From positions 3,420,595-3,484,594 of the forward strand of contig NC_006177.1 in the NCBI RefSeq assembly GCF_000009905.1: a DNA stretch of 64,000 nucleotides. The letters are read 5' to 3'. Shown piece after piece: positions 53,132 through 55,279 of this stretch. Within the stretch, counting starts at the first letter, position 1; each line of letters begins with the position of its first letter. The notes beneath the pieces are model-generated. The model was given only the letters and a program-made list of their open reading frames with translations. It did not search any database and was not told the origin of the DNA. Made by a program: the position numbers and the translations under genes. The DNA comes from Symbiobacterium thermophilum IAM 14863. GTDB lineage: Bacteria; Bacillota; Sulfobacillia; Symbiobacteriales; Symbiobacteriaceae.

Positions 53132-53977
53132 TTACTTCTCATCCTTCGCATCCAGCAGGGCCTGGTAGACGGCCTTGCGGGAGACCCCGAACCGCTGGGC
53201 CACCTCCTTCATGGCCAGCTTGCGGTCCATCCCCTGCGCCACGAAGGCCGCAACCTCTCCGGCAAGAAGCGCCGGATCCGGGGCTCCGGCGACGGGGGCT
53301 TCCGCCTCGGCCCCCTGCACCACGAGGACGAACTCGCCGCGCGGGGCGTTGCGGTTGAAATGGTCGATCACCTGCGAGACAGTGCCCCGCACGTACTCCT
53401 CGTGGAGTTTCGTCAACTCACGTGCGGCGGTCATCGGCCGGTCGCCCAGCGTCTCCCGCAGGTCATGGAGCGTCTCCAGCAGCCGGTGCGGGGCCTCGTA
53501 GAGGATCAGGGTGCGCTCCTCGTCCTTGAGCCGCTCCAGGGCGCGCCTGCGCTCTCGGCCCTTATGGGGCAGGAACCCCTCGAACGCAAAGCGGCCGGTA
53601 GGCAGGCCCGACGCGACCAGGGCCGTCACCAACGCGGTGGGGCCCGGAACGGGCACGACCGGAATCCCGGCGTCCAGGGCGCTGCGCACCAGCTCCTCCC
53701 CGGGGTCGGAGATGGCCGGCATCCCGGCGTCGGACACCAGTGCAACGTCCTCGCCGTCCAGCAGCCGGCGGATCAGGGCCGGTCCCGCCTTGCGCTTGTT
53801 GTGTTCGTGGTAGCTGGTGGTCGGCGTGTCGATCTGGAAGTGCTGCAGCAGCTTGCGGGTCTCCCGCGTGTCCTCGCAGGCGATCACGGAGACCGACCGC
53901 AGGATGCGCAGGGCCCGGTGCGTGACGTCCTCCAGGTTCCCGATCGGCGTGCCGACGATCTAGAGCGTGCCCGCCAC
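53132..53977 (-). pseudogene. rsmI: 16S rRNA 2'-O-methyltransferase RsmI, interrupted by amber codon 6
   Basis: A GTG at 53977 with GGGAGG ten bases upstream begins V-A-G-T-L, then TAG (53960-53962), then IVGTPIGNLEDVTHRALR and the rest of an intact RsmI. The expected residue at the TAG is Tyr (LYIVGTPIGN in the family), so TAC to TAG is the likely change. The next in-frame start, GTG 53887, would make 251 residues lacking the GTPIGN SAM loop. Downstream motifs are normal (ACEDTRETRKLLQHF, DAGMPAISDPGE, PGPTALVTAL). TAG serves as an ordinary stop for glmU and the methyltransferase here, so recoding is unlikely. Confidence 0.8.
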
Positions 53978-53998
53978 GTCCTGCCGTCCTCCCGTAGG

Positions 53999-55279
53999 TT
54001 AGCCGCCGGCCTCGCCGGCCGCGGGCGCACCGCCGTCTGATGCCGTCCCGCCTGCGGCGCCGCCCACCGCCGCGGCCGGTCTCCGCCTGCGGCGACGCCG
54101 GTGCGCGCTGCGCGCGGGACGTTCGGCGCTTGCTGCCTCACCGTGCGGCTCGCCGCCCTCCCGGGCGCCGTGGCCGCGCCGACGGGACTGCTCCCCGGCC
54201 TGGCTGCCGTCCCGCCGGCCATGGTCACCCCGGCCGGCTTCGGCCCGGCCCTGCTCTTCCCGGTTGCCCCCGGCCTGGCTACGCTCTTGGCGGCTGTCGT
54301 CCACCCGCGGCTGCTGCCGCTTCGACCGCCGCCTCGCCCGCCGCCGGCTCTTGCGCTCGCCACCGGCGCTGCCGGCCTCGGCGGTCTCATCCTGGGCGAC
54401 AGCGTTACCTTCCTGCGTTCCCTCGCCACGGTTACGGCCGCGCTCCCGCCTCGAGGGCCTCTCGTCCTCCCGGGCCCCGGCGATCCGCGCCCGGTCGCCG
54501 GCGCCCGGCTGGACCGCCTCGGCCGGCACCGGAGCGGCCGGCTCCGTCAGCCACTCGACCTCAGGCATCTCCTCCGGCTCAGGGTCAGGCAGCGGCGGCG
54601 GTACGTACGCAGGAGCAAGGGTTGGGTCCTTCTTGGCCGCCTCGTAGGTTTCCTGCTCGAACCGCAGGCAGCACATCAGCCTCCCGCAGAGCCCGGAGAT
54701 CTTCGACGGGTTCAGCGAGAGGTTCTGATCCTTGGCCATCCGGATGGAGACCGGCGCGAACTCGCCGAGGAAGCTGGTGCAGCAGAGCACCCGGCCGCAG
54801 GGGCCGATGCCCCCCAGCAGTTTGGCTTCGTCGCGCACACCGATCTGCCGCATCTCGATGCGGGTGCGGAATACCGAGGCCAGGTCCCGCACCAGTTCAC
54901 GGAAGTCAACCCGCCCCTCGGCGGTGAAGTAGAAGATGATCTTCGAGCCATCAAATGTATATTCAACGTCGACCAGGTACATGTCCAGATTGTGGGCCTC
55001 GATCTTCTGGAGGGCGATCGCAAAGGCGTCCTTCTCCTTGCGCTTGTTCGCCTCCGCGATCTGCGCATCCCGGTCGTTCCCGATGCGAATCACCTTTTTC
55101 AGGGGCTGCACGACCTCGTCCTCCGGCACCATCTTGGGCCCGACGACGACCTCGCCGTACTCCACCCCCCTGACCGTCTCCACAATGACCCGATCTCCCT
55201 GGGCGACGGGCAGCTCACCGGGATCGAAGTAGTATACCTTCCCGGCCAGCTTGAAACGCACGCCTACAACACAGACCAC
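53999..55279 (-). CDS. ricT: RicT/YaaT PSP1-domain protein with a long disordered tail
   Basis: 426 residues from GTG 55279 with GAGGAGGTG upstream. The PSP1 core (about 1-235) has VGVRFKLAGKVYYFDPG, GPCGRVLCCTSFLGEF and SGLCGRLMCCLRFE, whose cysteines bind 4Fe-4S in the RicAFT complex that activates RNase Y. Residues from about 250 on are Arg/Glu/Gly/Ala-rich low complexity with several RRRR runs, absent from the 275-residue B. subtilis protein. It lies directly after holB, as in Bacilli. Confidence 0.94.
   Translation of the reverse strand: MVCVVGVRFKLAGKVYYFDPGELPVAQGDRVIVETVRGVEYGEVVVGPKMVPEDEVVQPLKKVIRIGNDRDAQIAEANKRKEKDAFAIALQKIEAHNLDMYLVDVEYTFDGSKIIFYFTAEGRVDFRELVRDLASVFRTRIEMRQIGVRDEAKLLGGIGPCGRVLCCTSFLGEFAPVSIRMAKDQNLSLNPSKISGLCGRLMCCLRFEQETYEAAKKDPTLAPAYVPPPLPDPEPEEMPEVEWLTEPAAPVPAEAVQPGAGDRARIAGAREDERPSRRERGRNRGEGTQEGNAVAQDETAEAGSAGGERKSRRRARRRSKRQQPRVDDSRQERSQAGGNREEQGRAEAGRGDHGRRDGSQAGEQSRRRGHGAREGGEPHGEAASAERPARSAHRRRRRRRPAAAVGGAAGGTASDGGAPAAGEAGG

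Follow-up and report, generated by a model that had tools for sequence, protein, structure and literature searches.

A premature TAG at codon 6 of an otherwise intact rsmI gene in Symbiobacterium thermophilum: very recent mutation or one-base sequencing error

The rsmI gene of Symbiobacterium thermophilum IAM 14863, which encodes an enzyme involved in fine-tuning the ribosome, carries an in-frame TAG five codons after its start, followed by what appears to be a complete RsmI. This raises the question whether the gene has been lost, whether the base is wrong, or whether the gene is read in an unusual way. The perfect preservation of the rest of the gene favours either a loss-of-function mutation of very recent date or a sequencing error at one base, and speaks against an unusual reading of the gene. 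The stretch of DNA analysed, here called the window, is 64,000 nucleotides long and comprises bases 3,420,595-3,484,594 of the single-contig genome of 3,566,135 bases; the GC content of S. thermophilum DNA is 0.688. The features at the locus are as follows, in window coordinates.

53132 to 53977, minus strand: rsmI, encoding 16S rRNA (cytidine-1402-2'-O)-methyltransferase, intact except for codon 6 (TIGR00096, single copy, 77% identity to the congener).
53978 to 53997, minus strand: ribosome-binding region of rsmI, CTACGGGAGGACGGCAGGAC, recognized from the sequence and its anti-Shine-Dalgarno pairing (-11.1 kcal/mol).
53975 to 53977, minus strand: GTG start codon of rsmI, the sole canonical start between an upstream in-frame TAA and the TAG.
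53960 to 53962, minus strand: in-frame TAG, codon 6 of rsmI, at the Tyr position of the family (Tyr in 97 of 109 homologues, stop in none).
53132 to 53887, minus strand: longest frame with a canonical start past the TAG, beginning at GTG codon 31 (251 amino acids, lacking the TPIGN loop).

The 5' end of rsmI reads GTG GCG GGC ACG CTC, then TAG, then ATC GTC GGC ACG CCG ATC GGG AAC, which translates as V-A-G-T-L-TAG-I-V-G-T-P-I-G-N. After the TAG the frame is open to its stop at 53134-53132. The initial annotation described a well-placed GTG with a ribosome-binding site followed by TAG at codon 6, and both its coordinates and its description are correct. The GTG at 53977 is preceded by GGGAGG, and its upstream stretch gave the strongest anti-Shine-Dalgarno pairing of the candidate starts tested. 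No earlier start of rsmI is available, since the upstream frame is closed by the TAA eight codons before the GTG. Thus, the frame running from the start codon is interrupted at codon 6.

When codon 6 was read as Tyr, the product matched the NCBIfam equivalog model TIGR00096 (RsmI, YraL) over residues 5-275 with 301.4 bits against a curated cut-off of 167.9, and it also matched solved structures of RsmI, 9pzg and 5hw4 among them. The annotation of an otherwise perfect RsmI is therefore borne out. The gene is present in one copy only in the 3.57-Mb genome, and a search for a second copy found none there. Among 61 genomes searched, S. thermophilum included, 59 have rsmI. Across 109 homologues, drawn from relatives and from public genomes, the column of the TAG holds Tyr in 97; the other 12 have Phe (8), Ile (2), Val (1) or Trp (1), and a stop occurs in none. 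The position is thus the family's Tyr position, as had been proposed, and S. thermophilum differs from the family in having TAG where the others have Tyr or another hydrophobic residue. In the three nearest relatives with rsmI, codon 6 is TAT (congener G001, G004) or TAC (G003). Early stops flagged in rsmI of four distant relatives were rejected, being natural 3' ends or stops 5' of the start. A literature search, whose reach did not extend to the genome paper (PMC519118), found no discussion of S. thermophilum rsmI.

The rest of the gene bears on the age of the lesion. The dN/dS of rsmI against G001 is 0.229, and twelve neighbouring genes span 0.03-0.26. Lineage-specific residue changes number 14 in S. 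thermophilum and 11 in G001. At the 67 columns where at least 90% of homologues agree, S. thermophilum matches the consensus in 66, including the N-terminal TPIGN loop; the lone deviation, A34C, is common to G001, so that no substitution at these columns is unique to S. thermophilum. There is no further stop beyond codon 6. Neither relaxed constraint nor further lesions, either of which would mark a nonsense pseudogene, were found in rsmI, although the premature stop itself is absent from all orthologues compared. If a fraction f of the branch had passed without selection, about 58f changes would be expected in the 67 conserved codons, and none was observed. With a pairwise dS of 0.77 between rsmI and its G001 copy, the unselected fraction since the split from the congener is likely to be below about 5%, a bound that is a rough inference and not a fitted model. 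The absence of unique changes at conserved residues, together with an ordinary dN/dS, means that the lesion is either very recent or not real.

We consider it somewhat probable that the TAG is a real and very recent nonsense mutation. A single base change would have converted to TAG the Tyr codon that the relatives have here (TAC or TAT). Translation would then start at the GTG at 53977, five residues would be made, and RF1 would release the peptide. Full-length RsmI would arise from ordinary leaky readthrough in trace quantities at most, and the product of a restart at codon 31 would be missing the N-terminal AdoMet-contacting loop. With no decay in the remainder of rsmI, such a mutation can only be very recent. 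Recent single-base nonsense pseudogenes of bacterial strains likewise show a lone stop in an otherwise intact, constrained gene, and the present case differs from them in the choice of gene alone, rsmI being highly conserved and rarely lost outside Patescibacteria (PMC12641178). In this sense the event itself is commonplace, and it is the loss of this particular gene that is rare. That the base is genuine and RsmI activity is lost is what we infer, and three points weigh against it. A single base error would look the same. A real mutation would have to date from the last 5% or so of the time elapsed after the congener split, a tight constraint on timing that does not apply to an error. Nearly all bacteria conserve rsmI, so its loss is uncommon.

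The chief alternative is that the assembly is wrong at this base and that the organism itself has a Tyr codon here and makes functional RsmI; we regard this as a serious possibility, though short of an even chance. A perfect remainder of the gene, with no further decay, is what an error predicts, and the relatives have TAT or TAC at codon 6. TAC is the preferred Tyr codon in S. thermophilum (1030 TAC versus 124 TAT), and a single C-to-G miscall would be enough to turn it into TAG. The change also creates a CTAG tetramer, which makes the base unusual whatever its origin. CTAG occurs 112 times in the window and the sampled stretches together (454 kb), where base composition predicts 1305, a depletion of about 12-fold.

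The quality of the assembly argues in the other direction. We compared 600 kb of the congener with about 694 kb sampled from the S. thermophilum genome, which gave 273 orthologous frames with 95,512 codons. No convincing frameshift was found in these frames. One convincing premature stop other than that of rsmI was found, in a NUDIX gene; the remaining flagged stops were dismissed on reading the alignments as wrong-frame ORFs, stops 5' of the true start or natural C-termini. Assembly errors are thus rare, and the assembly is fairly clean. In older sequencing, frameshift and indel errors were commoner than substitution errors, so a substitution would be the less usual kind of error. The clean assembly leads us to lean, modestly, to a real nonsense mutation over a base error. 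TAG is moreover the likeliest nonsense codon in S. thermophilum: a single base change leads to TAG from 16.6% of codons, to TAA from 3.8% and to TGA from 3.4%. Among the 273 frames, rsmI alone combines a stop with conserved sequence before and after it and no other damage. The NUDIX hydrolase gene (genome positions 2,214,317-2,214,721, minus strand, outside the window; orthologue in the congener at G001:C20:6167-6664) has a TAG within the Nudix box and an in-frame deletion of 27 codons, and is likely a genuine pseudogene.

If the TAG is real, the 16S rRNA would lack the 2'-O-methyl group of C1402, or nearly so. Since rsmH is intact in S. thermophilum, the N4-methyl group would be kept, and C1402 in the ribosomes is expected to be m4C lacking 2'-O-methylation. 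Single and double knockouts of E. coli are viable with slower growth, and show altered initiation efficiency and reduced UGA readthrough (PMC5053481). Because these knockouts live, loss of rsmI is tolerable. The strain would then offer a naturally occurring rsmI mutant that retains an intact RsmH, in which to probe the role of the C1402 2'-O-methyl group in a moderate thermophile. If the TAG is an error, the reference record needs correcting. Either outcome leaves the picture of translation and the genetic code unchanged.

It is also conceivable that a near-cognate tRNA inserts an amino acid at the UAG and that this leaky readthrough supplies RsmI at a low level that is still enough. This would keep the N-terminus and the remainder of the protein intact, and the codon 6 column accepts several residues. 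Nonetheless we find it very unlikely. A family search that gives positives in control genomes found no match to PylS in the S. thermophilum genome, and ARAGORN read no tRNA with a CUA anticodon on the loci covering the 97 tRNA-search matches of the genome. RF1 is present and intact. The 100 bases around codon 6 fold no better than shuffles (z = +0.24), so a candidate RNA recoding element or other stable RNA structure there was rejected. The TAG is absent from relatives and is therefore not a conserved device. TAG is the stop codon of 34 out of the 110 intact genes that were verified by comparison with the congener, in agreement with the initial annotation that several intact genes use it as an ordinary stop. 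The rsmI gene resembles UAG recoding systems, which use pyrrolysine or a suppressor tRNA, in having an in-frame UAG inside a conserved gene. It differs from them in that S. thermophilum has neither PylS nor a CUA-anticodon tRNA and uses TAG as a normal stop, and in that the affected column is a Tyr and not a catalytic site. Taken together, the missing PylS and CUA-anticodon tRNA, the presence of RF1 and the common use of TAG as a stop speak against decoding of the rsmI UAG as an amino acid, which had already been judged improbable, and within the reach of the tools recoding is excluded.

Initiation after the TAG, at ATC (codon 7), CTG (codons 15, 23 and 26) or GTG (codon 31), seems to us very unlikely. 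The rsmI frame is open from codon 7, and initiation efficiency changes in E. coli without C1402 methylation (PMC5053481). However, the ATC and CTG candidates pair weakly with the anti-Shine-Dalgarno sequence (-5.3 to -2.5 kcal/mol, the ATC at -5.3), against -11.1 kcal/mol at the GTG at 53977. The GTG at codon 31 (53887), the next canonical start, pairs moderately (-7.6 kcal/mol) but lies downstream of the GTPIGN loop, so the earlier statement that the next start removes this loop holds; indeed any start at codon 15 or later loses TPIGN. The structure-match alignment, together with the E. coli sequence, places in this loop the residue that we take to correspond to Ile21 of E. coli RsmI. Ile21 contacts the adenine of AdoMet in the E. 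coli enzyme (PMC5053481). The product of the ATC start would drop the first six residues, including the near-invariant Gly3 and Leu5. Of the three options originally offered for the TAG, a null mutation and a sequence error thus both remain, and initiation from ATC is not supported.

We likewise give very little credence to a combination in which the TAG is real and tolerated, low but sufficient RsmI being made by readthrough or from a non-canonical start; since loss of C1402 methylation alters start selection, expression of RsmI could then depend on its own product. Reassignment of TAG to an amino acid throughout S. thermophilum, to which the in-frame TAG in another conserved gene, that of the NUDIX hydrolase, might seem to point, has practically no chance of being correct: normal termination at TAG in the 34 of 110 verified genes refutes it at genome scale, RF1 is present, there is neither a suppressor tRNA nor PylS, and the NUDIX gene also has its 27-codon deletion and the residue replaced there is not Tyr.

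In another congener, G002, rsmI falls in an assembly gap, with contigs C9 and C79 ending on either side. Codon 6 is uninformative there, and a loss of the gene in this congener was rejected. The break lies exactly across rsmI and the 3' end, rich in GC, of the PSP1-domain gene. In S. thermophilum the PSP1-domain gene lies beside rsmI (54000-54600, minus strand). Its first 220 residues are 90% identical to those of the congener, and it has a long C-terminal tail rich in Arg, Gly and Ala that is unalignable with the congener.
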